64,000 bases of DNA from Synechococcus sp. MU1617. Its GTDB lineage: Bacteria > Cyanobacteriota > Cyanobacteriia > PCC-6307 > Cyanobiaceae. This document shows positions 24,330-60,313 of this stretch, one piece after another; positions within the stretch are counted from its first letter, which is position 1; the number at the start of each line of letters is the position of its first letter. The notes beneath the pieces are model-generated. The model saw only the letters and a program-made list of their open reading frames with translations. It did no database searches and was not told the DNA's origin. A program made the translations under genes and the position numbers. Location: assembly GCF_020514235.1 (NCBI RefSeq), contig NZ_VTLB01000001.1, forward strand, positions 248,001-312,000. Reading direction: 5' to 3'.

Positions 24330-24343
24330 AGTACATACGTACT
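24330..24343 (+). promoter_or_regulatory. LexA (SOS) operator upstream of umuD
   Basis: AGTACATACGTACT is a 14-base site with perfect outer arms AGTAC-N4-GTACT and fits the cyanobacterial LexA consensus RGTAC-N3-DGTWCB. It lies 24 bases before the umuD GTG and overlaps a possible -10 element TACTAT (24340-24345), so LexA binding there would block transcription. It also lies 48 bases from the start of the divergent gene. Confidence 0.85.
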
Positions 24344-24367: not shown

Positions 24368-24799
24368 GTGGAGCTCCAACACAGACCGCTGCCCCTGCAG
24401 CCCAAGCGCAGTCGGCTCACGCTGCCCCTGGCTGGGGAACGGGTCACCGCCGGCTTCCCGTCCCCCGCCGATGACTACGTCGATGTGGGGATCGACCTCA
24501 ATGAACAACTGATCCGGCATCCCAGCAGCACCTTTTTCCTGCATGTGAGCGGCGAATCAATGACCGACGCCGGCATCCACGACGGCGATCTTCTGGTAGT
24601 CGATCGCAGCCTCGACCCGCGCCCGGGCCAGGTGGTTGTGGCTGTGCTCGACGGTGCCTTCACCCTCAAACGCCTGATGCGTCATCGCGGCCGGTTGCGC
24701 CTGGAAGCCGCCCATCCGGACTATCCGCCACTGGAGCTTCATTGCTGCGGCGAAGTGCAGATCTGGGGCGTCGCCATCCACGTGATCCATCCGCTCTGA
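24368..24799 (+). CDS. umuD: SOS mutagenesis protein UmuD (S24 peptidase family)
   Basis: UmuD self-cleaves on RecA filaments to UmuD', which with UmuC forms DNA polymerase V for translesion synthesis. The cleavage site is Ala28-Gly29 in TAGFPSPADDY (E. coli has Cys-Gly; LexA has Ala-Gly). The catalytic dyad is Ser64 in HVSGESMTD and Lys101 in GAFTLKRLM. The 143-residue length is normal. Initiation is at GTG. Its usual partner umuC is not next to it but 14.4 kb downstream, beyond one giant gene. Confidence 0.94.
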   Translation: MELQHRPLPLQPKRSRLTLPLAGERVTAGFPSPADDYVDVGIDLNEQLIRHPSSTFFLHVSGESMTDAGIHDGDLLVVDRSLDPRPGQVVVAVLDGAFTLKRLMRHRGRLRLEAAHPDYPPLELHCCGEVQIWGVAIHVIHPL

Positions 24800-24893
24800 G
24801 GCGAAAAATGTCTGATAGGCAGATCAGAAAACTGGTCCAGCCTTCAAGACGGAACAAAGCGGCTAACTAGCGTCAAAGTGAGAACGAAGTTGC

Positions 24894-27800
24894 ATGAGAA
24901 AAGCAAGCAACACGATCTGGAGATATTGCCTTAGCGCAGTTGCGTTTGCTGCCATTATTAATGGTGGAGAAAGTATCGCCCAAAGCAGCAATTTACCAAG
25001 CAGCGAAAATCCTTATACATATCCAAGTGATTTCGAAGATGGTTCGGAGAATTTCGTTCCGGTCTATCTTTATTTCACGGGTGGAGGTGGAAATCCAGGC
25101 GGGAATGGAGCGACAATTGATTTCAATATTGAAAGCCTGCCAGCAACAACAGGGGAATTTTATAGCTGGTATACAGGAGCTCAATCACAGGGTGGAAATG
25201 GCAACAAAGGTTCGGACGGAAATTGTGACGACATACTAAAAGTAACGGATTGCCATGCCACAGGTGGAAAAGGTGGAGACGGCGGGAATGGCGGGAAAGT
25301 AAGTGTAAATCTAGGCTCGGCTGATAGCTACGACGTAAGCAATAGGATCAAAATCCAAACATCGCAAGTAACAGAATCTGGGGGATCGTACATTGTAGGA
25401 GCAATTGCTTCAAGCATTGGCGGAAATGGCGGAAAAGGTGGGGCAAGTTCTTCAATATCAGTAGACGCCAATGGTGGCAAAGGTGGTAACGGAGGCAATG
25501 CGGAAAGCGAAGCTCCGCCAACCACATTGACAATCAATAAAAATGTAGAGCTAAGAGCGTTGAGTAGTGGAAACGAATTGATTCCAATCGGTGGATTGGC
25601 TCAAAGCGCAGGTGGTATCGGTGGTGATGGAGGAGACTGCGATTCAATTGGTGGCTGCCCAGATAAAGATCGAGGTGGTGGAGGTGGATTTGCAGGCGAT
25701 ATAACCATTAACAATGATGGAATTATTGAGCTCGAAATAACTGATCAACAATGCAGCAACACTGAGGACGGTGAGAGCTGCGCAGGCGGAGCCGGCCTAT
25801 TGGCTCAATCAGTGGGTGGACAAGGCGGAAACGCAAGTGCAACAGGAATCTCCCTGGTGACCTTCGGTGGCGCAGGGGGAACAGGGGGTGGTGGTGGGAA
25901 AATCAATGTCACACACACGGGACTGATTACAACCACGGGAATTGGGGCGATCGGGATTAATGCCCAAAGCGTGGGCGGCAGTGGAGGTTCAGTTCCGGAT
26001 AGCTATTCGGCAGTCACACTGGGAAGCTCAGAAGGTGGATTGGGAGGAGAGGCTCAAACCGTATCGGTGAACCTGGATGCAGGCATCATCAAAACAAATG
26101 GAAATTACGCACCAGGAATTCTCAGCCAAAGCATTGGTGGAGGTGGTGGTTCAGTCGGATCACAAACAAGCCTGATTACTGTTGGATCCGACGCAGGGGG
26201 AGGAGGAGATGGCGGGGAGGCAGCAATCACGTTGCAAAACAACGGATTGATCGAGACAGGTGAACATTTCAAATTAAACACCACAACAAGAGAAGGATTC
26301 TTTTCACCTGCCGTCATTGTCCAATCGGTAGGCGGGGGCGGAGGTAACGCAGGAACCAATACAGGAACAATCAACGTTGGCTCATCGGGAGGAGATGGTG
26401 GTGATGGCGGAAATGTCACGGCGGTATTGAATCAATCAACGCTTGGAACATGGCGGGGATTTTCACCAGGGCTCGTTCTACAGAGCATTGGTGGTGGTGG
26501 AGGTCATGGCGGTGATGTAAGTAGTGCTGACACAGGCCAAGTTTCAGTTGGCGGTGGTGGCGAAGGCGGTGGAGGTGGAAATGCAGGGGAAATTAATGCT
26601 TTTCAAGATGTCTTTGGTGAAAGCACTAAGATCATTACGCATGGCATTTTTTCACCAGGAATACTTGTTCAAGGAATTGGTGGTGGTGGCGGAAGTGGAG
26701 GAAGTGCAACCTCTCTCACATTAAGCCCAGAGCCATCGATAAGCGTTACTGTTGGAGGACAAGGCGGAGATGGAGGAGATGCTGGTGTCATCAACTTTGG
26801 ATCGGATATTGATGAATCAATTGAATTATCTGTAAAAACTCAACGAGCCTTCTCACCTGCCATCAGCATGATGAGCGTGGGTGGTGGTGGTGGTCAAGGT
26901 GGCCAATCCAGCACATACGGAGCAAGTCTGACAGTATCAGCCTCAGTAAGTGCAGGGGGGCAAGGAGGAGCAGGAGGAAGTGGTGAGAATGTAACGGCAT
27001 ATCTGAAAGGAAAAACAGAAACTTCCGGCTTCATGTCACCGGGCCTGTCAATCAGCAGCATCGGTGGTGGTGGTGGAGATGGAGGCTCAGCCACAAGCAT
27101 GAATGCAGGAGGAATTGCATCTGCATCAGTGGCTATTGGAGGAAGTGGAGGTGAGGGAATGAATGGTGGAGATGTAACCCTTACTTATCAAGGGAGCAGC
27201 ACAACACAAGGTTTATTTTCGCCGGCAATAAAAATCAGAAGTATCGGTGGTGGCGGTGGCAGTGGAGGATCATCAACGACAGCGGATGCGTCAAGTACCG
27301 CAAGCATTGGCGTAGGCATCGGGGGAGCTGGTGAAGGCGGAGGAGATGCAGGAGAGGTTTACCTTGATTTCGAAGGATTAGCGTATACAAACAATGCACT
27401 TTCACCTGTATTACTGCTACAAAGTATTGGTGGTGGTGGTGGAGATGGTGGCGGGGCGACAAGTGGAAGTATGGCTATTAGTCCATATCCAAATATAAGT
27501 GCAGTAGCAACAATCGGCGGAAGTGCCGGTATGGGTGGGAACGGAAATAACATCACTCTGAATCTTGGAGGAGTCATCAAGAGCGGCAATGATGCGGCTG
27601 TAGATCCGCTGAAAAGATCAGGATTTTCACCAGGAGTCATTATTCAAACAATCGGTGGCGGAGGCGGACACGGCGGGGTGGCGACCTCAGGCTCTGCGAG
27701 CATTTCAGCCGAAGCAGCCGTCACAGCGAACGTGGCGATTGGCGGACCGGGGGGGGCAGGTGGAAACGCAGGAACTATTGAAATCAGCAGTAAAAAAATC

Positions 27801-30800
27801 AGCGCAATCGAGACCTACGGAAAATTCTCACCAGGATTGATTGCGCAAGCCATTGGTGGTGGTGGTGGAAATGGCGGATCGAGCATGAGCCTGTCTGGAA
27901 CGATTGGTGGGGATGGAAGTGCAAGTGGTGGTGTGTCTATGGGTGGTAGTGGTAGCGAAGGAGGAACAGGAGGGGGAATCGATCTAGATGGTTTACAAGG
28001 TGGAATTCACACAAGGGATGAATTTTCACCAGGAATAATTCTTCAAAGTATTGGAGGAGGTGGAGGAAACGGTGGAACATCGTTGAACTATTCCTTGTCG
28101 GCAGGTGGAGACGGTGCTATCGACGCAACCGCATCGATTGGCGGGAGTGGAGCGGCAGGAGGATCAGGCGGTGATGTAGAGATCAAGATCGGATCACAAA
28201 TCGAAACCGAGGCTGATCATTCGCCAGGCCTCGCGGTGCAGTCAATTGGTGGGGGCGGAGGAAACGGAGGTTCAAGCCATACAGTTTCAGCGACCGGTTC
28301 AACAAAAAATACGTTTACAGCAGGAGCAAACCTTGGAGGGTCTGCCGGAGATGGTAATAAAGGAGGGGACATCACCATTGAATATGAAAACGAATTCGCT
28401 CAAACAAAAAGCTTAGTGCAAACAAGTGGTGCATTTGCGCCTGCAATTGTTGTTCAATCCATTGGCGGCGGTGGCGGCAATGGAGGAAATTCATCAACAC
28501 TAAGTGCAAGTCTGAGTGGGGAAGATGCTCTCAGTGCAAATGTAAATCTAGGGGGAAATGGTGGCTCAGGCAGTGACGCCGGAAAGATCGAACTAAGCAT
28601 CAAGGGTGATCTAAGAACGGGATGGAGCGAAGCAAGAAGAACAACATCATCGCACGCACCAGGAATTATTGCTCAATCGATTGGTGGCGGTGGTGGACAT
28701 GGAGGAACAGCAACTCGAGGAGAAATAACCATTGCCGGGAAAGATTCGGCAAGTGTAGGAATTGCAAATTTTGGCAATACTGTTGGGGGAGGGAGTGAGC
28801 CACAGGGAGGGGAAGGAGGCGATGGAGGGAGCGGTTCAAATGTGAGTATTGAAGTCCTAGAAAGGGGCAGCATCACAACAAGTGGTGATTATTCTCCCGG
28901 TGTTATTGCCCAAAGTATTGGGGGTGGAGGCGGAACAGGAGGTTCAAGTAAGTCTGGATCAATCAGCCTTACTGGTGAAACTCAGATTCAGCTCAACTCG
29001 GTCATTGGCGGAAATGGTGGTTGGGCAGGAGATGGCGGAAATATCGTTGTACTAAACACAGGTAAAATCAGAACTGGTGAACAACATCTATTACGGACGG
29101 ATGGACGATTCTCACCAGGCCTTTTCGCCCAATCTATCGGTGGTGGCGGCGGGATGGGCGGATCCGCTTATAACGGGACAATCACTGTTGCTGGAGAGTC
29201 TGAAAGTGGATTGGGTTCAATCGATGGAGGTGTAGTTGTCGGTGGACGCGGTGGCGCTGGTGGAGATGCAGGAAGCGTGGAAATTAACAGTATGGGTGAA
29301 GAGATAAGAACTCAGGCAGACTTTTCGAGTGGAATACAAGCAGTTTCGGTAGGAGGAGGTGGCGGAACGGGCGGAAGTGCAAGGTCAAAGAGCAGCAATT
29401 ATGGAACGGCAACAAATAACCTTAGTGTGGTTTTAGGGGGAGATGGAAGTGGGGGTGGAGATGCAAGTGAAGTAACGATTACAAACAGAAGCATCATCAA
29501 GACAGGAGGAAGAGACCAAACGCGTAGAGGACAACACTCATTTGGAATCTTTGGGCAATCTGTTGGCGGTGGTGGTGGCAATGGAGGGAGCAGCTCGACA
29601 GACAACACCAGCATCGAAATTGATGAATCAGAAGAAAAAAAGGCTTACACAATCGATGTCAACCTCGGCGGAAAAGCAGGCAAAGGAGGATCAGGTGGAA
29701 ATGTTCGTATCAACAACACATCACCATTAATCAGTACAACAGGTCATTTTGCAGCAGGTATTTACGGCCAATCAATTGGTGGCGGGGGTGGAGCCGGTGG
29801 TAATAGCACTTCAGTCAATAACGTGGAGGTAATTTCCGAGACATCCGTGATTGGTGGAGTCAGTCTTGGGGGTGAGGGTGGAACAGGAGGAAAGGGAGGA
29901 GATGTATGGATCAACTCGGATAAGGAAAGAAAATCATTTGCGCCAATACAAATTAAAACCTTAGGAGCCTTTGCCTATGGACTTTTTGCGCAATCAGTGG
30001 GTGGTGGCGGTGGATCTGGTGGAAGCACCCTAGTGAGTAATAGGACAACATCAATCGATGGAGATTCAATTATTGCTGAAGGTGGTGGGTCAATCAAATT
30101 AGGAGGAATTGGTGGGGAAGATTGGGGAGTTGGTGGAGAAGGTGCCAGTGGGGGAGACGTCAGTATTGATGCACAGGGTTTAATTGCTACGGAGGGAATT
30201 GGGGCGATTGGACTGGTAGGTCAATCAATCGGTGGAGGTGGTGGAGCAGGTGGAAGCTTCACAGCAACAAGTTCACAGGATGAAGCAGATGAGGGTGAAT
30301 TTGAGGAAGAAGACGAAGAGATAGAGGAAGATCTGGAAGAAGAAGGTGAGACAAAAGAGAGAAACGATGCCTACATCAATTTCATACTCGGTGGTGATGG
30401 AGGGGAAGGCCATGATGGAGGAGAAGTATCCATCAGCAATAAAGATCAAAAGCAACTGCAGATCAACACCAAGGGAATTAATGCACCAGCAATTGTTGCC
30501 CAGTCCATTGGAGGTGGTGGTGGAATTGGAGGCAGTACAACAGACAATGCCGAGGTCGTCAAAGCATCCCAATACAGTATTGGCGGATTAGGAACAGTCA
30601 CAGGAAGTGGGGGAAATGCAGGAAACGGCGGGGTTGTGAATCTTGGGGCAAGGAGAGAGACACTCAATCTCCGTTTGAAGACTGAAAAGGCAGCTTCGCC
30701 ATCAATAATTGTGCAATCCATTGGTGGTGGAGGTGGAGCAGGTGGAGGTACGGTCACCAACTCCACCGGATCAGCCTTTTCAGGATCATTCGACTTCGGC

Positions 30801-33800
30801 ACCAAGGGGGGCAAAGCAGGATCAGGGTCTGATGTCAGTACACACGCCACACTGGATCTGACAACACTGGGCTACCAGTCCACTGCACTGATCATCCAAT
30901 CAATTGGTGGCGGTGGGGGACAGGGCGGAAATGTGAGCAATACAAGTACCACTAGCTATGAAGACAATGAAAACAAGGAGGAAGAAAAAATTGAAGAAAA
31001 TATAAAACAAGAAGAGAGCAAAGAAGGCGGGAATACAAACGAGAAAGACAAAGAAGATAAAGAGAAAAAAGGTTACACCATGAATTTCGGAGTAAGTAAA
31101 TCAGGAAAAGGTGGTAGTGGTGGAGATGCAGGAGATATTAATGTCAATATTGAAGGAAAAATTCTCACGGTACGAACAGGAAGTGATGGAGGCTTGATCC
31201 AAAGCATTGGTGGAGGCGGCGGAAGCGGAGGCACAACAACAACCACTCCGACAACAGAAGGGAACGAAGAGGGCTCAATCTCAATCCCTGTTGCAATGAA
31301 CTTTGGCGGTCGCGGAGGAGGTGGCGGAAACGCAGGTGATATCAACTATCGAAGCAACGGGAGACTTTTTGTCCAAACTGAAGGAAACAACTCTCTCGGC
31401 TTAGGCCTGCAAAGTATTGGAGGCGGAGGCGGTCGCGGCGGGAGTGTAACAACAACGAATACAAACAATTCAAAGAGCGAATATACATTTGGCGCCTCCG
31501 TGAGCAAAGGTGCAAAAGGTGGTGGCGGAGGACGATCTGGTGAGGTTTCACTTGATCTTCTGGGAAGAAGGTCGAAGATCCAAGTTGCCACTCATGGAAT
31601 CAACTCCCCTGGACTAGTTCTTCAAAGTATCGGCGGTGGCGGTGGAATAGGATCAAATTCAAACGCAGGTAACAGCGCTGGAAATATCTCCGTGGGATTT
31701 ACCATGGGTGGTCGGGGAGGTCGTGGCGGCGGAAGTAAACGCGTCGATCTGAATGCTGACCTATCGGTCAGCACAAAATCGGCACATTCCGAAGGCGTAC
31801 TCATTCAATCGATCGGTGGCGGCGGCGGACGTGGTGGCAGTGTTGCAGCGAACGTAAAAGCCGAAGGCCATGAATCAGAGAATAAATTTAGTCTTGGTCT
31901 AACAGGGGCGCTCGGTGGTAAGGGCGGACTGGGAGGCAATGGTGCTGACGCCACAGCATCGATTAATGGCTTAGTGACAACTCAAGGCCATATTTCATCA
32001 GGAATCACAATCCAATCAATCGGCGGCGGTGGTGGTAAAGCAGGAGCAATTTTTAATGCCAGTAATGCAAAGGGAAGCGCTAAAAATATGGCAACTGGTT
32101 TTTCGCTCGGTGCATCCGGTGGTGGAGCTGGTGAGGCGAAAGCAGTACGTCTTGTCAGCAAAGAGGATAAAAAATTAGGTGTATTTACATATGGTCATGC
32201 AAGCCCTGGTGTGATGCTCCAAAGCATTGGAGGGGGTGGAGGGAATGGATCACTGGTGCAAAATGTGAGCAGAAGTAGCTCCAATGAATTCTCGCTCGGT
32301 GCTTCAGTATCAAAAGGAGGCAGAGGTGGAAGTGGCGGCAACAGCGGCGCAGTTGCCGTGGATCTGCAAAATTTGGTGATCGCAACCGAAGGAGCTAATT
32401 CAAGCGGATTGCAGGCTCAGACCATTGGTGGAGGTGGTGGAAATGCGGGGTCAGTGAATGCCAAAACCGGAAAAGGGGATTACCAAATCAGTCTTGCTCT
32501 TGGTGCTAACGGGGGGAAAGGAGGATCTACAGGGAACGCTTCAATTGAAATCGAAGATGCAATTATTACAACACAAGGTGCATCATCCAATGCCATTCAA
32601 ATCCAAGCCATCGGCGGTGGAGGTGGTAACGCTAGCCATGTAACTAACCGTGGATCAAAAGCAACCATTCAGGGTGAGCTTGGAAGTCAATCCGGTGACG
32701 GCGGAAATGGAGGTGTTGTCAACGTTACAAGCATTGCTGATTTACGAACTGCTGGAAACAACTCTGCAGGACTCTTTGTGCAAAGCATTGGTGGCGGCGG
32801 TGGTTCAACGAATGTAACGACTACCGGAGACAGAGATTTACTGAAGTCTGACGATTTGAAAGGTTTTATAGCGGTAGGTGGCCAAGGAGGAGAAGGTGGC
32901 GATGGAGGGGAAATCAATATAGATTCAACAACAAACATCACGACGTTAGGCGAACAAGCACATGGCTTGATATCTCAAAGTCTTGGAGGTGGTGGCGGAA
33001 GAGTTGCACTACAAGCAGGCCCCATCCTGGCGGCATCAGACATGTTGATGCACCTCGGTGGAACATCAGGAAAAGGGGGGAATGGAGATACAGCTGTCGT
33101 TAGCAATAAAGGTTATGTATCAGTACACGGAGATTCAAGCTATGGATTATATGTTCAATCAATCGGAGGTGGTGGAGGTTCCGTATCGAGCACATCACCA
33201 ATCAAAGTGAATCTTGGCGGAACAGGAGGAGATGGTGGACATGGTGGAGACATAGAAGTTGTTAATCAGAAAACAGGGATCATTGAATCTCGTGGCAAAA
33301 ATGGAATAGGTGTATTTGCAATGTCACTTGGGGGAGGTGGCGGTGATGTTGGAACAACTCAAGATCTTGTCACGATGGGTAGCAAGGTTGGAGTTGGCGG
33401 TAACGGTGGTGATATCGCAATTTTGAATCGGGGGACAATCAGAACCACTGGAGAAGGAGGTGTAGGAATTCTTGCAAGAAGTCTTGGTGGTGGTGGTGGA
33501 CGAGTGGCTTCAAGTATCAATAGTGGAAATCTTCATCTCGGATCAACTAGCTCAGAAGAAGCCAAGGGCGGAGAAGTTACTGTTATCAATACTGGAAACA
33601 TCTATTCCTTCGGACACGATTCGACGCCATTACAACTCGATGGAATAGGCGGGGGAGGTGGAGATGCACGGAAGAACTATGGACGTTTGGAGCTGGGAAG
33701 CAAAAACGGTTCTGGTGATCAACGATCAAAGAGAAGTGAGCTTAATAACAAAGGTTTCCTTTATTCAGCGCAGAATTTTTCACCGGCACTGATTCATCAA

Positions 33801-36800
33801 AGCCTAGGTGGTGGTGGTGGAAGTGTAATTAATGGTAAGGATCATGCTCAACTCGGAAGCCAACACGGATCTGGATTGCAATCAACCGGGAAACTGATAC
33901 TCAACAATCGAGGCTCAGCAATTACCGAGGGAACGAATTCGCCGGGCGTATTTGTCCAAACCATTGGTGGGGGGGGTGGACGCGTAACCCGAGTGGATGG
34001 AACAGCTCATCTTGGCAGCCATCACACCAAACACCTTGGCGACTTTTCGTCAGGTCGCATTCAGCTGAGCAACAACGTAAAAACTATAAGAACTGCAGGG
34101 CATCTCAGCCCAACACTGGTTAGCCAAAGTATTGGCGGAGGTGGAGGTTGGATTGGCATCGCGCAAGGTGACCTGAGTCTTGGAGCCGTCAACTCCAATG
34201 GTGCACTATCAGCCGGGCCAATCAAAATTCAAAATGATGCAGAACTCAGAAGTGAGGGAGATGGATCAGTTGGCTTGATGAGTCAAACGATTGGTGGTGG
34301 TGGTGGTTATTCGGCTTATGCAAAGGGAGAGTTAAAACTTGGTTCATTGACTTCAAAGGGCAACCTTTCAGCAGGCAAAATTGACTTAAGCAATACCGGC
34401 TCAATTCTCACACTGAATGACAATTCACCAGTTATTATTAGTACTAATATTGGCGGAGGTGGGGGATTCATTGGTGGTACTAACCATCTGAAAACCAATG
34501 GAGAGGGTAATATCAGGCTTGGCAGCTTGAACAGCGAAGGCAATCAATCATCCAAAAGCAATAAAATTAGGAATACTGGCTATCTTCAATCACAGGGAAA
34601 TTATTCACCGGCCGTTCTTCAACAGACAATCGGTGGCGGTGGAGGAAGCGTTGTTCATGGCAAAGGGCATGCTCAGTTAGGAAGTGGAAGCGGTTCTGGG
34701 GATCAATCCGCAGGAGATCTTATCTGGCTGAACAAAGGAAGAATCATTACATCAGGGGATCATTCACCTGCTGTTTTTAACCAATCAATAGGCGGTGGTG
34801 GAGGTCGAGTCAGCCGAGTTAATGGAACAGCACATTTGGGTAACAAAGAAACTCTTCGATCGAGTTTTCTAAATTCGGGCGAATTATCAATCAGAAATGA
34901 AGGCCAATTAGTTGCTACTGAAGGAAATTTGAGCCCTGCAATCGTGAGCCAAACCATCGGTGGCGGGGGCGGCTGGCTTGGAATCAGTGCTGATGACTTG
35001 AAATTGGGGTCAAGTGAAGCTCTTGGTGATCAATCTTCGGGTGATCTTGTTCTAACGAACAAAGGACATTTGATTACACGTGGTGTTGCTTCTGGTGGAA
35101 TTCTTGCGCAATCAATTGGAGGTGGTGGTGGCTACACAGCATTCGCCAACGGATCACTTCAATTGGGAGCACTCAATTCCCATGGTGTGCTTTCAGCTGG
35201 ACAGGTTGATCTTAAAAATAGTTCTTCAATACGAACTGATGGTAAGAACTCACCAGGAATTGTGGCAACCGGCGTTGCAGGGGGTGGTGGCTTTGTAGCA
35301 GGTCAAGCAGGAGAGATTGTAAACGTCGTGCATCTGGGCGGTTCTGGTCGAACAGTATCCAAGGCTGATCGGCTCAGGATCAAGCTTGATCGCTCGTCAG
35401 AAGTCATCACCAAGGGGCACAATTCACCTGGAGTTCTAGGGCAATCGATTGGCGGTGGAGGTGGATATACGAGTCAGCGTGGGCGTTTTGTCAACATGGG
35501 CCAACAGGGTGGAATCGGCCATGCCGGCAACGTTGACATTGAAAATGAAGGAAGAATTTCTACCAGAGGGAATCACTCCCATGGTGTTGTTGCACAAAGC
35601 ATCGGAAGCGGTGGAGGAACTGCATTCCTCAGTGATCGACGTGCTGTTCTTGGTTCAACCAATGGATCCAATGGAAACGCAGGATCTGTAGTTGTTAACA
35701 ACCGTCGTGGAATCATTTCCACGCATGGGAAACACTCCATCGGAGTGGTTGCTCAATCTGTTGGCGGTGGTGGCGGACGGCTAGCTGAAGCGAAGGGTGA
35801 TGTTCAACTTGGTGCTGATGGTGGATCCGGACATGGCGGGCTTGTGGAGATCATTAATGAACGTGCGCTGATCAGCACTACCGGAAACTTTTCACCGGCT
35901 TACCTCATGCAGAGTGTCGGAGGTGGTGGTGGGCACATTGCCGCTCGCCGTAACGGTGAAACCGAAGCCAACACGCGTCTGATTCTCGGGGGAGGACAAC
36001 AAGGTGCCGAAGGAAATGGTGGACCAATCCAACTCAAGAATTTCACGGGTGAAATCAACTCAAGTGGAAAGTTTTCCCCTGGAATCGTTCACCAGTCCAT
36101 CGGTGGTGGTGGTGGCTGGTTGGGTGAATTATCTGGAATCAGCACAAGCCTGGGTGGTCGCTCACTTGGCCGATCCAGTGGTGCAAACCTGAACATGAGG
36201 CTTCCACTGGCCGTTAATACTCTCAGTGCGACCAGCCCCGGAGTCGTGATTCAGAGTATTGGAGGAGGTGGGGGTGCTTCTGGAAACATCAAACGTGCTG
36301 CCTACTTGGGTGGTCGACCAGATTCCGGGTCAATTGTGCGTGGGGGAACAATTGGTTTTGTCTCCAAGCAACCCATCAAAACTTTTGGTTTGAATTCCCC
36401 TGGTGTGCTGCTGCAAAGTATTGGTGGTGGTGGTGGATATGTTGGATCAGCGAGAAAACGCGTTGAGCTTGGAGGAACAATCCATCGCTTGGCTGATGCA
36501 TCAGCAGGCAACATTGAGACGATCAATCGTTCTTTGATCTCAACATCCAACAAACGCTCACCAGGTTTCGTTGCTCAATCCATAGGAGGCGGCGGTGGTT
36601 TCATTCTGTCTGGTGAATCAGCAGTTCTAGGATCAAAAAACGCAAAAGAGAATCGCTTGACTCTTAACGAACGTGCAGGTACGACAAAATTAATCAATAA
36701 AGGAGCCATTCAAACCCAGGGTGAGCACAGCATGGGTGTGCTCATCCAATCAATTGCCAATGGTGGTGGCATCGGCAGCAGTAATTCTGGCAATGTTGAC

Positions 36801-39155
36801 TTGAGATCAAAGAGTCAGTCTGAATCAGGTGAGATAACAATTGAGAATTCAGGAATAATTGAAACCTCAGGAACTGGCTCTCATGGGATTGTCGCCCAGT
36901 CAATTTCTGGTTCCGGGGGCTTTGTCTTTGGAAACTCACAAAAACATCAACCAATAGAACTAGAACGACAAATCACAGCGGAATCCAAAGACATTACACT
37001 CAAAAATACGGGAACAATTCTGACTCGTGGAGACAATGCAATTGCTGTGCTTGCGCAAACCGCAGCAGGTGGTGCCTACATCTACCAAAATCCTGACGGC
37101 ACAACATCTCGTGTCACATCAGCGCTTACTCATCCGAGCAAAAAAGCCGGCGATGTTGTCGTCATTAATAGTGGGTCAATTATCGCAACGGGGAGAGGCG
37201 GTATCGGCATCACAAAGAGCACAAATCCTGTTCCAATTGAATCCAATCTTCGTGTTGTAAATACAGCGACTGGTATTATTCGCGGTGGAGAAGGTGGTGC
37301 AGCTGTTCAGTTGCCTACAAGAGAGCGAGAATCGATTGATAATCAGGGCATCATGATTGGTGGCCTCTTAGGTCAAGGAATTGTGATTGAGGGGCTTGGA
37401 GGTAATGACGAAATCGTCAATTCCAATCTGATTGCTGGGAATATTCTGCTTCAAGGTGGTCGCAATACCATTGCCAACTCCGCCAATGCGAGACTCGAAG
37501 CCACTGATATCGTCCTGGGCCGTCGCGCAGAACTGGTGAACGCAGGCACCCTTTCTCCTGACGGAGCCCATCGGATTGGAACGATGGATTTAGTTGCCAA
37601 ATACTTCCAAACAAAAACAGGAAATTATGAATTTGATCTTGATATCTCCGATGGCCAAACAGATTATTTTCATATTGCTTCTGTTGGATTACTTGAGGGC
37701 GATGTCACTCTCGTACCAACAGAAACCGGCCTCGCCAAGCCTGGTCGATTTACAAGCACAGAGTTTTTGACTGCCCGTGATATTCCGCTCGACAGACTTT
37801 CATTCAAATACCCAAAATCAGCCATCGCAGATTACAAGCTACTCGATGTCTCAAGCGATAAAGGTGATGGCCTCCAAGTGGAATACAAGATTGATTACTC
37901 CCCTCAGGGGCTTTCACCTAACAGCCGCCGCTTAGGCAATGCTATTAACCGTATCCAAGCCGATGGTGTTGATTCAATTGAACAAAGAGTGAATGCTGCA
38001 TACCTATACTCAATCGAAACAACAGATGAACTGAATGAGGTTTATCAGCAATTGTCTGGGGAGCAAAACACAAATTATTCACAGCCCATTATCGACTCTT
38101 CCTTGCTGTTCTTGAAAGCTGCACAAGATCAGATTGATCAGGCATCCAATCAAATCAGCCTGGCATGTGCGAACAAGGACGTCTCAGAAGCCCCTGATCA
38201 AACCAATGAATCTCAAGATTCATCGGTCTGCCAGCGATTCCATGCATGGAAAGAAAGCTCGGGTACATCCGACACCTATGAAGGAGGAGGAAGTTCAGAT
38301 CAAAGCGGCTATGAGACCAACTCTTACAACTCTTCCATTGGCCTTAGTTACCAACTCAATCCACGCATCATGGTTGGTGGTTTCGGTCAATTTTCCAAAC
38401 TTTGGACAACATCCACGGGATTGAGTGGCCATGGAACAACTGAGCTATGGAATGCCGCCGGATTCCTCAATGTTGCCCTATCCAAGGACACACCAAACAC
38501 CCTTCTATCATTGATGATCGGTGGAGGAACGGCATCAACAGACATCAAGCGAACCATTGATCTTCCGAACACCTCAACCGAAAAGAGCAGCGCAGACAGT
38601 ACCCAATTCATGGGCAGGATTCAGCTCAGTCATGAGTTTTCTACAGGCGACGGACCTCTATCAGGACTGATCACACCACAACTTGGCATCAGTGCCATTC
38701 ACTACTCACAAAAGGGCTATCAAGAACGCACCTCTTCAAGTAGCCAGTCTTGGGCTCCTGGCCGCCACCGTTTTTCTGAATCTATTGAAATCGAACCATC
38801 ACACAGCCTTCGCTATTCCGAGGCAACGTACACATCAATCCCTCTCGATTTCAATATCAAGTTCTCACAGCCTTTCCAAATTGGAACTGTTCGATTCAAT
38901 CCACAACTCTCCGCTGGCTACAGCATCGATCTGAGTGACACCAGTCGGTCCCTTGAAGCGGCGTTCGTTAATCAACCTGGACACCGCTTCAAGGTTGAGG
39001 GAACCGACGCACCTCAATCCTGGTGGGATTTTGGCCTCAATCTGGATGTCCACATCAGCGACTCCTTTGCGCTGTACGCCAACACTCGAGCTGAATTGGC
39101 CGCTGGCACCAAGAGCTCCTTCAACTACGGCGGCGGCTTCCGCTGGAAGTTCTAA
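24894..39155 (+). CDS. Giant Gly-rich-repeat autotransporter (type V secretion adhesin)
   Basis: A single uninterrupted frame of 4,753 codons. A signal peptide covers about residues 1-30 (YCLSAVAFAAIINGGESIAQ). The passenger runs to about 4180 and holds roughly sixty repeats of about 60-65 residues, each with a (V/L/A)QS(I/V)GGGGG block next to SPG and N-x-G-x-I-x-T segments, consistent with a long beta-solenoid. Two acidic low-complexity inserts occur near 1795-1825 and 2020-2060. From about 4182 there is a non-repeat stem, then a linker (GLSPNSRRLGNAINRIQADG, DELNEVYQQLSGEQ) typical of autotransporters, and a beta-barrel from about 4445 ending GGGFRWKF. It should be exported by Sec and displayed on the outer membrane. 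Similar AQSIGGGGG passengers are known to me from alpha- and beta-proteobacteria. Base composition is far more AT-rich than the neighbours, suggesting transfer. Substrate or ligand unknown. Confidence 0.92.
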   Translation: MRKASNTIWRYCLSAVAFAAIINGGESIAQSSNLPSSENPYTYPSDFEDGSENFVPVYLYFTGGGGNPGGNGATIDFNIESLPATTGEFYSWYTGAQSQGGNGNKGSDGNCDDILKVTDCHATGGKGGDGGNGGKVSVNLGSADSYDVSNRIKIQTSQVTESGGSYIVGAIASSIGGNGGKGGASSSISVDANGGKGGNGGNAESEAPPTTLTINKNVELRALSSGNELIPIGGLAQSAGGIGGDGGDCDSIGGCPDKDRGGGGGFAGDITINNDGIIELEITDQQCSNTEDGESCAGGAGLLAQSVGGQGGNASATGISLVTFGGAGGTGGGGGKINVTHTGLITTTGIGAIGINAQSVGGSGGSVPDSYSAVTLGSSEGGLGGEAQTVSVNLDAGIIKTNGNYAPGILSQSIGGGGGSVGSQTSLITVGSDAGGGGDGGEAAITLQNNGLIETGEHFKLNTTTREGFFSPAVIVQSVGGGGGNAGTNTGTINVGSSGGDGGDGGNVTAVLNQSTLGTWRGFSPGLVLQSIGGGGGHGGDVSSADTGQVSVGGGGEGGGGGNAGEINAFQDVFGESTKIITHGIFSPGILVQGIGGGGGSGGSATSLTLSPEPSISVTVGGQGGDGGDAGVINFGSDIDESIELSVKTQRAFSPAISMMSVGGGGGQGGQSSTYGASLTVSASVSAGGQGGAGGSGENVTAYLKGKTETSGFMSPGLSISSIGGGGGDGGSATSMNAGGIASASVAIGGSGGEGMNGGDVTLTYQGSSTTQGLFSPAIKIRSIGGGGGSGGSSTTADASSTASIGVGIGGAGEGGGDAGEVYLDFEGLAYTNNALSPVLLLQSIGGGGGDGGGATSGSMAISPYPNISAVATIGGSAGMGGNGNNITLNLGGVIKSGNDAAVDPLKRSGFSPGVIIQTIGGGGGHGGVATSGSASISAEAAVTANVAIGGPGGAGGNAGTIEISSKKISAIETYGKFSPGLIAQAIGGGGGNGGSSMSLSGTIGGDGSASGGVSMGGSGSEGGTGGGIDLDGLQGGIHTRDEFSPGIILQSIGGGGGNGGTSLNYSLSAGGDGAIDATASIGGSGAAGGSGGDVEIKIGSQIETEADHSPGLAVQSIGGGGGNGGSSHTVSATGSTKNTFTAGANLGGSAGDGNKGGDITIEYENEFAQTKSLVQTSGAFAPAIVVQSIGGGGGNGGNSSTLSASLSGEDALSANVNLGGNGGSGSDAGKIELSIKGDLRTGWSEARRTTSSHAPGIIAQSIGGGGGHGGTATRGEITIAGKDSASVGIANFGNTVGGGSEPQGGEGGDGGSGSNVSIEVLERGSITTSGDYSPGVIAQSIGGGGGTGGSSKSGSISLTGETQIQLNSVIGGNGGWAGDGGNIVVLNTGKIRTGEQHLLRTDGRFSPGLFAQSIGGGGGMGGSAYNGTITVAGESESGLGSIDGGVVVGGRGGAGGDAGSVEINSMGEEIRTQADFSSGIQAVSVGGGGGTGGSARSKSSNYGTATNNLSVVLGGDGSGGGDASEVTITNRSIIKTGGRDQTRRGQHSFGIFGQSVGGGGGNGGSSSTDNTSIEIDESEEKKAYTIDVNLGGKAGKGGSGGNVRINNTSPLISTTGHFAAGIYGQSIGGGGGAGGNSTSVNNVEVISETSVIGGVSLGGEGGTGGKGGDVWINSDKERKSFAPIQIKTLGAFAYGLFAQSVGGGGGSGGSTLVSNRTTSIDGDSIIAEGGGSIKLGGIGGEDWGVGGEGASGGDVSIDAQGLIATEGIGAIGLVGQSIGGGGGAGGSFTATSSQDEADEGEFEEEDEEIEEDLEEEGETKERNDAYINFILGGDGGEGHDGGEVSISNKDQKQLQINTKGINAPAIVAQSIGGGGGIGGSTTDNAEVVKASQYSIGGLGTVTGSGGNAGNGGVVNLGARRETLNLRLKTEKAASPSIIVQSIGGGGGAGGGTVTNSTGSAFSGSFDFGTKGGKAGSGSDVSTHATLDLTTLGYQSTALIIQSIGGGGGQGGNVSNTSTTSYEDNENKEEEKIEENIKQEESKEGGNTNEKDKEDKEKKGYTMNFGVSKSGKGGSGGDAGDINVNIEGKILTVRTGSDGGLIQSIGGGGGSGGTTTTTPTTEGNEEGSISIPVAMNFGGRGGGGGNAGDINYRSNGRLFVQTEGNNSLGLGLQSIGGGGGRGGSVTTTNTNNSKSEYTFGASVSKGAKGGGGGRSGEVSLDLLGRRSKIQVATHGINSPGLVLQSIGGGGGIGSNSNAGNSAGNISVGFTMGGRGGRGGGSKRVDLNADLSVSTKSAHSEGVLIQSIGGGGGRGGSVAANVKAEGHESENKFSLGLTGALGGKGGLGGNGADATASINGLVTTQGHISSGITIQSIGGGGGKAGAIFNASNAKGSAKNMATGFSLGASGGGAGEAKAVRLVSKEDKKLGVFTYGHASPGVMLQSIGGGGGNGSLVQNVSRSSSNEFSLGASVSKGGRGGSGGNSGAVAVDLQNLVIATEGANSSGLQAQTIGGGGGNAGSVNAKTGKGDYQISLALGANGGKGGSTGNASIEIEDAIITTQGASSNAIQIQAIGGGGGNASHVTNRGSKATIQGELGSQSGDGGNGGVVNVTSIADLRTAGNNSAGLFVQSIGGGGGSTNVTTTGDRDLLKSDDLKGFIAVGGQGGEGGDGGEINIDSTTNITTLGEQAHGLISQSLGGGGGRVALQAGPILAASDMLMHLGGTSGKGGNGDTAVVSNKGYVSVHGDSSYGLYVQSIGGGGGSVSSTSPIKVNLGGTGGDGGHGGDIEVVNQKTGIIESRGKNGIGVFAMSLGGGGGDVGTTQDLVTMGSKVGVGGNGGDIAILNRGTIRTTGEGGVGILARSLGGGGGRVASSINSGNLHLGSTSSEEAKGGEVTVINTGNIYSFGHDSTPLQLDGIGGGGGDARKNYGRLELGSKNGSGDQRSKRSELNNKGFLYSAQNFSPALIHQSLGGGGGSVINGKDHAQLGSQHGSGLQSTGKLILNNRGSAITEGTNSPGVFVQTIGGGGGRVTRVDGTAHLGSHHTKHLGDFSSGRIQLSNNVKTIRTAGHLSPTLVSQSIGGGGGWIGIAQGDLSLGAVNSNGALSAGPIKIQNDAELRSEGDGSVGLMSQTIGGGGGYSAYAKGELKLGSLTSKGNLSAGKIDLSNTGSILTLNDNSPVIISTNIGGGGGFIGGTNHLKTNGEGNIRLGSLNSEGNQSSKSNKIRNTGYLQSQGNYSPAVLQQTIGGGGGSVVHGKGHAQLGSGSGSGDQSAGDLIWLNKGRIITSGDHSPAVFNQSIGGGGGRVSRVNGTAHLGNKETLRSSFLNSGELSIRNEGQLVATEGNLSPAIVSQTIGGGGGWLGISADDLKLGSSEALGDQSSGDLVLTNKGHLITRGVASGGILAQSIGGGGGYTAFANGSLQLGALNSHGVLSAGQVDLKNSSSIRTDGKNSPGIVATGVAGGGGFVAGQAGEIVNVVHLGGSGRTVSKADRLRIKLDRSSEVITKGHNSPGVLGQSIGGGGGYTSQRGRFVNMGQQGGIGHAGNVDIENEGRISTRGNHSHGVVAQSIGSGGGTAFLSDRRAVLGSTNGSNGNAGSVVVNNRRGIISTHGKHSIGVVAQSVGGGGGRLAEAKGDVQLGADGGSGHGGLVEIINERALISTTGNFSPAYLMQSVGGGGGHIAARRNGETEANTRLILGGGQQGAEGNGGPIQLKNFTGEINSSGKFSPGIVHQSIGGGGGWLGELSGISTSLGGRSLGRSSGANLNMRLPLAVNTLSATSPGVVIQSIGGGGGASGNIKRAAYLGGRPDSGSIVRGGTIGFVSKQPIKTFGLNSPGVLLQSIGGGGGYVGSARKRVELGGTIHRLADASAGNIETINRSLISTSNKRSPGFVAQSIGGGGGFILSGESAVLGSKNAKENRLTLNERAGTTKLINKGAIQTQGEHSMGVLIQSIANGGGIGSSNSGNVDLRSKSQSESGEITIENSGIIETSGTGSHGIVAQSISGSGGFVFGNSQKHQPIELERQITAESKDITLKNTGTILTRGDNAIAVLAQTAAGGAYIYQNPDGTTSRVTSALTHPSKKAGDVVVINSGSIIATGRGGIGITKSTNPVPIESNLRVVNTATGIIRGGEGGAAVQLPTRERESIDNQGIMIGGLLGQGIVIEGLGGNDEIVNSNLIAGNILLQGGRNTIANSANARLEATDIVLGRRAELVNAGTLSPDGAHRIGTMDLVAKYFQTKTGNYEFDLDISDGQTDYFHIASVGLLEGDVTLVPTETGLAKPGRFTSTEFLTARDIPLDRLSFKYPKSAIADYKLLDVSSDKGDGLQVEYKIDYSPQGLSPNSRRLGNAINRIQADGVDSIEQRVNAAYLYSIETTDELNEVYQQLSGEQNTNYSQPIIDSSLLFLKAAQDQIDQASNQISLACANKDVSEAPDQTNESQDSSVCQRFHAWKESSGTSDTYEGGGSSDQSGYETNSYNSSIGLSYQLNPRIMVGGFGQFSKLWTTSTGLSGHGTTELWNAAGFLNVALSKDTPNTLLSLMIGGGTASTDIKRTIDLPNTSTEKSSADSTQFMGRIQLSHEFSTGDGPLSGLITPQLGISAIHYSQKGYQERTSSSSQSWAPGRHRFSESIEIEPSHSLRYSEATYTSIPLDFNIKFSQPFQIGTVRFNPQLSAGYSIDLSDTSRSLEAAFVNQPGHRFKVEGTDAPQSWWDFGLNLDVHISDSFALYANTRAELAAGTKSSFNYGGGFRWKF
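25402..37080 (+). repeat. About sixty coding repeats with QSIGGGGG core
   Basis: In-frame protein repeats spaced on average near 190 bases, each marked on the plus strand by a G-rich run of the type GGTGGTGGTGGTGGA. Two subtypes are visible. Up to about 33,500 each unit has a second Gly-rich block (such as GGXGGXGG) after the first. From about 33,500 to 36,700 that block is replaced by an LGS-x-x-S-x-G-x-QSSG segment and a Leu-x-Asn strand. The last units before 37,080 are degenerate (SIANGGG, SISGSGG, TAAGGA). Confidence 0.9.
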
Positions 39156-39163
39156 AGCCTTCC

Positions 39164-39183
39164 TATACTAGTACAAAAATACT
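39164..39183 (+). promoter_or_regulatory. LexA-type operator and -10 element of umuC
   Basis: AGTACAAAAATACT at 39170-39183 matches AGTAC-N4-GTACT with one change (G to A in the right arm). Directly before it, TATACT at 39164-39169 is a strong -10 element, nine bases past the giant gene's stop. Transcription would start near 39176, giving a very short leader before the umuC GTG. This lets umuC be SOS-controlled independently of umuD. Confidence 0.7.
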
Positions 39184-39188
39184 ATGGC

Positions 39189-40463
39189 GTGGTCTTCGTT
39201 ACTGCCCTGATCGATGGAAACAATTTCTATGCCTCCTGCGAACAGAGTCTGGACCCGGCTCTGATCGGCCACCCCGTTGTGGTGCTGTCCAACAACGACG
39301 GCTGCATCGTGGCGCGCAGTGCCGAAGCCCGTGCCCTGGGCATTCGCATGGGGACGCCGTACTTCAAGGCGCGCCGGGAGCTTGAACGGCACAACGTGGT
39401 GGTGCGCAGTTCGAACTACGCGCTCTATGCCGACATGAGCCAGCGGATGATGAGCCTGCTGGAGGCCCACTGCGAAGAGCTGGAGGTGTACTCAATCGAT
39501 GAAGCCTTCGGGAGGATTCGTCGTCCCCGCAATGGCGACCTGCAGGGTTGGGCCCGCCAGCTGCGGGCACGGGCACGGCAAAACCTCGGCCTTCCGATCG
39601 CCATCGGCCTAGGGGCCAGCAAGGGCCAGGCCAAGCTGGCCAATCGCCTGGCCAAACAGACCCCAGACCATGCCGGGATGTTCGACCTCGGCCAATGCGA
39701 CAACCCCGATCGCTGGCTGGAAACGATTGCGATCGAGGATGTCTGGGGGATCGGTCGCCAGTTGGCCCATTGGTGCCGCCTGCGGGGCATCAGCAACGCA
39801 CGACACCTCCGGGACATGCCGAGCGGTGAACTGCGCGCCAAATGCGGCGTGGTGGGTCTGCGGCTGCAACAGGAGCTGCGGGGCCATGCCTGCCTGCCGC
39901 TGGAGCTTGCACCGGCACCGAAGCAAGAAACCTGCGTGAGCCGCAGTTTCAGCCGACCCATCACCAGCCAGGAGGAGCTGCACCAGGCCATCGCCACCTA
40001 TGTGGTGCGCGCCGCCGAGAAATTGCGCAAGCAACGGCAACGGGCAGCAGCCCTCACCATCTACACCCGCACCAGCCCGTTCGCTCCTGGGTTTTACAGC
40101 CAAGCCGCCAGCACGCAGCTAGACCTACCCAGCAATGACACTGCCGTGCTGCTGCAGGCGGCACGACCCTTGGTGGCACGGATCTTTCGCCCCCACCGTC
40201 CGCTGGCCAAGGCCGGCGTGCTGATGCAGCACCTGCAGAGCCACGACATCCTGCAGACCCATCTGATGGTGCCGATGAGTGAGGAGCAGCAGCAGAAACG
40301 GGAGTGCCTGATGCAGACCATCGACCGGATCAATCGGCGTTACGGGCGTGGAACCCTGCAATGGGCCGGTTGCGGACTGCAGCCCAGTTGGTTGATGCGG
40401 CGGGAGCAACTCAGCCGTGCCGCCACCACCCGTCTGCAGGATCTGCCGGTGGTGAGGGCCTGA
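39189..40463 (+). CDS. umuC: DNA polymerase V catalytic subunit UmuC
   Basis: Y-family translesion polymerase that copies damaged templates when bound to UmuD'. Palm motifs are clear: ALIDGNNFYASCEQSLDPAL with the first metal Asp, SNNDGCIVARSAEARALGI, and VYSIDEAF with the catalytic Asp-Glu pair. The thumb and little-finger regions follow (LPIAIGLGASKGQAKLANRL, CVSRSFSRPI), and the end is the UmuC-specific C-terminal domain. 424 residues matches E. coli UmuC (422). Initiation is at a GTG with no visible ribosome site and a very short predicted leader. GC-rich like the backbone, unlike the gene before it. Confidence 0.95.
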   Translation: MVFVTALIDGNNFYASCEQSLDPALIGHPVVVLSNNDGCIVARSAEARALGIRMGTPYFKARRELERHNVVVRSSNYALYADMSQRMMSLLEAHCEELEVYSIDEAFGRIRRPRNGDLQGWARQLRARARQNLGLPIAIGLGASKGQAKLANRLAKQTPDHAGMFDLGQCDNPDRWLETIAIEDVWGIGRQLAHWCRLRGISNARHLRDMPSGELRAKCGVVGLRLQQELRGHACLPLELAPAPKQETCVSRSFSRPITSQEELHQAIATYVVRAAEKLRKQRQRAAALTIYTRTSPFAPGFYSQAASTQLDLPSNDTAVLLQAARPLVARIFRPHRPLAKAGVLMQHLQSHDILQTHLMVPMSEEQQQKRECLMQTIDRINRRYGRGTLQWAGCGLQPSWLMRREQLSRAATTRLQDLPVVRA

Positions 40464-60239: not shown

Positions 60240-60313
60240 CGGGGCGTGGCGCAGCTTGGTAGCGCACCACTTTGGGGTAGTGGGGGTCGTGGGTTCAAAT
60301 CCCGCCGCTCCGA
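60240..60313 (+). tRNA. tRNA-Pro (anticodon GGG)
   Basis: A full cloverleaf of 74 bases: acceptor stem CGGGGCG / CGCTCCG (one G-T pair), D-arm GGCGCAGCTTGGTAGCGCA, anticodon stem CCACT / AGTGG with loop TTGGGGT (anticodon GGG, G37), T-arm GTGGG TTCAAAT CCCGC and discriminator A. The 3' CCA is not encoded. The TTGGTAGCGCAC D-arm and C1-G72 pair are typical of tRNA-Pro. Confidence 0.95.

Follow-up and report, generated by a model that had tools for sequence, protein, structure and literature searches.

A giant glycine-repeat autotransporter gene between umuD and umuC of Synechococcus sp. MU1617: repeat architecture, relatives and apparent horizontal arrival

The giant gene and its repeat units

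The window, the whole 64-kb stretch of DNA that was analysed, belongs to the 2.32-Mb genome of Synechococcus sp. MU1617 and has a G+C content of about 60%. The host genome is marine Synechococcus-like, and the neighbouring genes are those of an ordinary bacterial chromosome (glnA, mnmH, secD, dnaG, dnaE, carA). Between umuD and umuC we found a single open reading frame of 4,753 aa without internal stop (Table 1). Read by eye, its N terminus is basic, then hydrophobic, and runs into ...ESIAQ. A Pfam scan of the C-terminal part alone detected the outer-membrane beta-barrel PF03797 of type Va systems with 99.8 bits against a cut-off of 26; the protein is a type V autotransporter. Glycine makes up 22.8% of all residues, and this bias is probably the reason why profile scans with the whole protein gave nothing useful in Pfam (one match below cut-off) or NCBIfam. 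Sequence searches against the PDB returned no match and a search of IMG/VR no relative. A first sample of 38 other genomes, none of them from the sister genus (g20), gave no match to the C-terminal 703 aa. The single named relative from the scan was an uncultured Synechococcus contig (L007) with 42% identity over the last 50 aa, which starts inside the gene.

Table 1. Features of the locus, in window coordinates.
Feature	Position	Strand	Basis
LexA/SOS-like box before umuD	24330..24343	+	sole exact AGTACNNNNGTACT in the 64-kb window
umuD-like gene (Peptidase_S24) flanking the insertion on the left	24368..24799	+	PF00717, E 3e-28
Inserted segment, missing from 26/26 umuC loci of 25 further genomes in the genus	24805..39200		locus comparison
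Giant autotransporter	24894..39155	+	ORF call, C-terminal PF03797
Signal-peptide-like N terminus	24894..24983	+	read by eye
Early units (index 2-39), each with two Gly-rich blocks, predicted beta-solenoid with polyglycine-II bundle	25806..33476	+	unit counts, model
Worn copy 1 of 4-unit A-B-C-D block (units 26-29)	30714..31622	+	phase string
Worn copy 2 of 4-unit block (units 30-33)	31623..32417	+	phase string
Late units (index 40-61), without second Gly block, half with an aromatic after the pentaglycine, predicted plain beta-helix	33477..37061	+	unit counts, model
5-unit block, copy 1 (units 42-46)	33798..34622	+	matrix diagonal, tree, identities
5-unit block, copy 2 (units 47-51)	34623..35441	+	matrix diagonal, tree, identities
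Off-consensus last two units (60, 61), reciprocal best hits of the last two G403 units	36747..37061	+	unit comparison
Autotransporter beta-barrel PF03797	38262..39083	+	two stretches; E 2.8e-28
Second LexA-like box, 1 mismatch, just before umuC	39170..39183	+	motif search
umuC, with a start codon and first residues other than the native ones	39189..40463	+	locus comparison

Repeat units were defined by a relaxed core pattern. In total we counted 62 of them, in agreement with the first-pass annotation, which had put the units sharing a QS(I/V)GGGGG core at about sixty; 53 contain an exact pentaglycine and 43 the form Q(S/T)(I/V/L)GGGGG. We counted 43 exact copies of the DNA core CARWSNNTNGGNGGNGGNGGNGG in the window, against none in 100 dinucleotide shuffles. 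At the DNA level tandem repetition is almost absent, with one 18-bp x 2 array reported by Tandem Repeats Finder. We set the boundary between early and late units at unit 40 (position 33,477). The second glycine-rich block that had been described for the early units only is indeed confined to them: GGxGG outside the core is present in 30/38 early and 0/22 late units, and GGGGGxGG in 25/38 and 0/22, respectively. The LGS segment said to take its place was found, as LG(S/A/G/N), in 19/22 late units, but 18/38 early units have it as well, so that it is not a pure replacement. Likewise, of the residues W, Y and V proposed to follow the pentaglycine only W and Y hold, the third being F (11/22 late against 0/38 early units for all three). 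The four motifs quoted in the annotation were located at 33825, 34650, 33981 and 34806, and the final units, which it called degenerate, do leave the core (QSIANGGG at 36747, QSISGSGG at 36897). Units 24 and 27 (30222-30500 and 30897-31199) carry long acidic/lysine-rich inserts, with units of up to 101 aa; the inserts sit at the stretch that separates the two glycine blocks in other units.

A 14.4-kb segment between umuD and umuC

In all 26 other umuC loci, which are every such locus found besides the window's own and come from 25 other genomes of the genus, umuD and umuC are separated by a gap of 13-37 nt without any match to the insert, while 14.4 kb lie between them in the window. The nearest umuC relative (G003, 99% identical) has an uninterrupted locus. 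The native umuC start reads MPQATALIDGNN, here it is a GTG start with VVFVTALIDGNN. GC3 of the giant gene is 0.36 (0.45 in tail and barrel) compared to 0.65-0.80 in 15 genes of the window. Because of the adjacency of umuD and umuC in the other loci and this contrast in codon use, the gene looks horizontally acquired, and recently so.

An older residence in the genus, with precise deletion in the other sampled species and a low GC3 due merely to odd composition, would be the alternative. Low GC relative to the surroundings (0.45-0.53) is seen in the genus's other autotransporter genes as well, so this alone is no proof of arrival. The homologue in the g20 genome G403, however, has a GC3 of 0.80, which shows that the protein does not demand low GC3; the uninterrupted loci include umuC relatives at 98-99% identity, and native bases, among them the umuC start codon, gave way to the insert. 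We regard an old resident as unlikely on these grounds and prefer horizontal arrival. As for the route of such an arrival, no tRNA was found in the insert (the window's only one is at 60240), Rfam gave no match between 20000 and 45000, no direct repeat >7 bp joins the insert ends and no mobile element was seen; thus we found no integration mechanism.

The motif AGTACNNNNGTACT before umuD is one which we take to be the cyanobacterial LexA box. The one-mismatch box at 39170-39183 lies 5 bp upstream of the present umuC start, and only the exact box at 24330 is a better match in the 64 kb. It may serve the displaced umuC as a new SOS promoter, brought by the insert or evolved at the site.

The genus also has an unrelated autotransporter lineage of its own (L026, L027, L028, L029, L033), with GC-poor passengers and lengths of 1,134-3,530 aa. 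At L026 a frame of 906 aa, signal-like at its start, is separated by one stop codon from a 2,646-aa frame in the same phase that carries the barrel, and this gene may be split.

Relatives, unit order and block copying

Searching 400 genomes of the family for the core pattern, we found more than 10 matches in nine (43 in the genome holding the window, G000; 184 in G352, 94 in G393, 110 in G403, 113 in G409, 204 in G571, 308 in G614, 17 in G649 and 11 in G601) and 0-2 in all others. Within the window's genus 1/34 genomes has more than one match, and in a sample of the phylum 6/386 genomes have at least 41. The homologues of G403 and G409 are ORFs of 9,151 aa (129 units) and 9,433 aa (133 units). 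G614 was omitted from the comparison for an N stretch and a split gene, and the genes of G352 and G393 are partial.

The repeat order of the window protein is colinear with that of G403. The chain score against the G403 units is 2,235, compared to a maximum of 929 when all units were shuffled and 1,004 +- 72 (maximum 1,194) when they were shuffled within their class (200 shuffles each). Reciprocal best hits exist for 37/62 units, and 31 of these units follow a single ascending order, where 2,000 shuffles reached 15 at most. These include the boundary units W38-W41, which pair with G403 units 59-62, and the last units W60 and W61, which pair with units 127 and 128. A joint tree was built from 179/191 units; those longer than 95 aa in the window protein or 90 aa in that of G403 were left aside, as were the outermost ones. 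With about 55-70 columns per unit its single branches are weak. The early/late label changes 3 times on it (shuffled minimum 46) and the host label 35 times (shuffled minimum 42). In a tree of the window units alone the separation is less sharp, with 8 changes and a shuffled minimum of 13. Given the colinearity, the subtype switch and the off-consensus last units predate the split of the genera, and both appear to be inherited design and not traces of recent growth. Beyond the family, shorter late units are present in the homologue of Tistrella, absent in those of G252 and Labrenzia and only weakly marked in Ancylobacter and Sphingobium; judged from these sequences, the subtype split is not universal among distant homologues.

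This bears on the central claim of the first-pass annotation, that two subtypes and a decaying end record stepwise growth; taken in full, such a view would have the array extend at one end while old units decay. Block duplications exist and early and late units do separate on the tree, so that the outcome named as its refutation, a tree with neither block structure nor separation, did not occur. But the boundary and the terminal units are colinear with the sister-genus protein, where the off-consensus ends are conserved rather than decayed, and the one insertion that can be placed (units 48-51 of G409) is inside the early part and not at an end. Unit orthology largely refutes growth from one end, which we consider improbable, and we keep to an inherited layout within which blocks were copied.

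The proposal that several repeats were duplicated as a block held up well. Among the late units the best unit-by-unit diagonal has an offset of 5 from unit 42 and was matched by none of 500 late-unit shuffles, and the unit tree joins 42/47, 43/48 and 45/50 as nearest neighbours. Unit 44 clusters with a sister-genus unit away from its block partner 49, thus the block may in part be older or partly converted. The eight offset-5 pairs share 35-62% protein identity, and their agreement at four-fold sites (0.09-0.58) is at the level of chance, which is 30% from glycine codon use and 34% in background pairs; the silent sites are randomised, hence the duplication is old. Early units compared with each other gave a weak offset-2 signal, equalled by 8/500 shuffles. 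Compared with the sister-genus homologue, units 26-33 follow the phase order A-B-C-D-A-B-C-(B or D), and the string ABCDABCD ranks 4 of 65,536 for these units. These observations support growth of the array by copying of blocks of several units.

Copy number differs by one block between the two g20 homologues, though this comparison involves a sister genus and not the sister strains that had been suggested. In a unit-by-unit alignment, units 48-51 of G409 are the only ones by which the two proteins differ in unit content, with a median DNA identity of 0.93. Offset-4 pairs starting from units 38-47 of G409 have 97-100% DNA identity in six of ten cases and 77-94% in the other four, and pairs at the two ends of the block region drop to about 55%. 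The 4-unit block whose A-B-C-D order units 26-33 of the window protein follow is thus in active tandem expansion in the sister genus. Blocks with an offset of 7 are seen in G393. Giant gene copies vary as well: at least two partial genes in G352, two in tandem in G571 and three in G614, with a largest ORF of 10,770 aa and one of the three split around an N stretch. The tandem pair of G571 (C1:225019-277912) is identical over the C-terminal 690 aa, which suggests recent duplication or gene conversion. G649 carries an AT-rich (GC3 0.32) QSIGGGGG autotransporter (C1:179396-184667) that is truncated by the end of the contig and has another barrel type, which groups with G252.

A further gene, encoding a protein of 237 aa that looks secreted by eye (C1:416051-416764 in G614), is present in 6/31 g20 genomes, exactly those that carry the g20-type giant autotransporter. 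It adjoins the giant gene in five of the six (G614, G403, G409, G571, G352) and is on another contig in G393. No match was found in G000. A Pfam scan of the protein gave no family; its likeness to Tic22 is an impression only. If it aids export, the copy in the window manages without this partner.

In a tree of the barrel region the window protein is sister to the g20 clade (98/99 support, best identity 40%), apart from the genus's own autotransporters (100/100). The tree is based on alignments of non-overlapping segments (A3, A4), after overlapping ones (A1, A2) had slid onto each other and were dropped. We infer from it an unsampled g20-type relative as donor; a donor that matches in codon use did not turn up. 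Plasmid-borne autotransporters with the same repeats also occur in alphaproteobacteria (WP_145907795.1 of Sphingobium TKS, WP_244451219.1 of Ancylobacter, and proteins of Tistrella and Labrenzia). They share the core, the barrel and mostly a period of 50-62 aa, and some have shortened last units, but the two-part layout is clear only in Tistrella. A tblastn search of plasmids with the repeats themselves came back empty, owing to the low-complexity filter. Recent direct transfer from such a bacterium is nevertheless highly unlikely in our judgement, as identity in the C-terminal 703 aa is just 26-31%, the barrel-region tree places the window protein with picocyanobacteria, and the plasmids searched held no proteobacterial homologue closer than g20.

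Predicted fold and proposed surface fibre

Structure models were built with 7 (early) and 5 (late) rows, all from the protein itself. The model of four early units (pLDDT 86.5, pTM 0.79) has as top VIA-align match 7jjv_B (Z 13.7, rmsd 1.3, 116 of 126 residues, 42% identity), a springtail antifreeze protein with a nine-helix polyproline-II bundle, and as second match a beta-solenoid (Z 9.8). For the model of five late units (pLDDT 86.9, pTM 0.88) the top match is Vag8 with Z 14.3 and an rmsd of 1.9 over 138 residues; 7jjv is not among the matches listed for it, which carries no evidential weight. With Foldseek alone, neither model had a match at E <= 0.001. The predicted fold of the early units is a beta-solenoid to which a polyglycine-II bundle is attached, and that of the late units is the plain beta-helix of autotransporters. 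That the array is a product of low-complexity slippage without defined fold, as the high glycine content might suggest, we consider extremely improbable in view of the single short DNA repeat array, the orthologous unit order across the genus split and the confident regular models of both parts.

Compared to the type Va autotransporters Vag8, Ag43 and Fap2, the likeness lies in the C-terminal PF03797 barrel and in the late units, which fit the Vag8 beta-helix, and a beta-solenoid passenger is present by prediction only (all-beta models and the Vag8 match). Differences are the 62 glycine-block units, the early half being modelled with a polyglycine-II bundle, and the size, which is 4,753 aa in the window and reaches 10,770 aa in a relative. 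The springtail and snow flea antifreeze proteins (7jjv, 2pne) are polyglycine-II bundles on which the early model superposes (7jjv_B), but here the predicted strands attach to a beta-solenoid. Glycine content may have led to the resemblance by convergence, and we do not claim ice binding.

We propose that the passenger would be a long stiff surface fibre, held by the C-terminal barrel. Its outer part would consist of the early units, with the glycine-rich blocks packed as a polyglycine-II bundle along a solenoid spine, and its membrane-proximal part of the late units as a plain beta-helix with aromatics where glycine was. At about 1 nm per unit the fibre would measure about 60 nm. Its length would change as whole blocks of 4-7 units are added or removed, with the solenoid register preserved. 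In this view the division into two parts and the peculiar final units are ancestral to the picocyanobacterial family, with blocks added inside the parts; the copy in the window holds old duplications (4-unit early, 5-unit late). The 14.4-kb segment would have come in a single insertion between umuD and umuC, and its donor would have been AT-rich at third codon positions. This account as a whole, a giant type V fibre of ancestral two-part layout that grew by blocks and arrived in one step, we hold to be probable. Of its elements the array, block homology, unit order, barrel, empty sites and codon contrast are observed, and the fold is predicted. The giant protein is presumably exported to form the surface fibre, and it might act as a shield against grazers or phages, or in adhesion.

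Giant ORFs of 5,016-84,534 bp with deviating composition and patchy presence have been noted in marine Synechococcus since 2008, when SwmB was the sole one characterised, according to excerpts of PMC2441476. Together with other island genes they have been linked, as a suggestion, to the avoidance of grazers and phages in passages of PMC2441476, PMC4949707 and PMC9387257. The gene in the window resembles these ORFs and SwmB in size class (14.3 kb), deviating composition (GC3 0.36 against 0.65-0.80) and uneven distribution (more than one pattern match in 1/34 genomes of the genus). The word 'autotransporter' does not occur in PMC2441476 or PMC4949707, and the giants tabulated in PMC9387257 have cadherin-like or RTX-type repeats, unlike the present glycine units. 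Among the matches listed from the open-access literature, none dealt with this family or with autotransporters that carry polyglycine-II.

One group of giant ORFs hereby gains an anchor, a predicted fold and a family that is orthologous at the level of single units, together with a cleanly delimited transfer and a live copying step, one 4-unit block by which two genomes of the sister genus differ. We suggest tentatively, at somewhat less than even odds, that picocyanobacteria display autotransporter fibres of great length, built as a beta-solenoid with a polyglycine-II bundle running continuously along it; these fibres would lengthen in register by blocks, and each could pass between genera as a single gene. 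The reach or stiffness of the fibre against block number becomes testable, and a solved structure of the hybrid of beta-solenoid and polyglycine-II bundle would establish a construction principle new among bacterial fibres.
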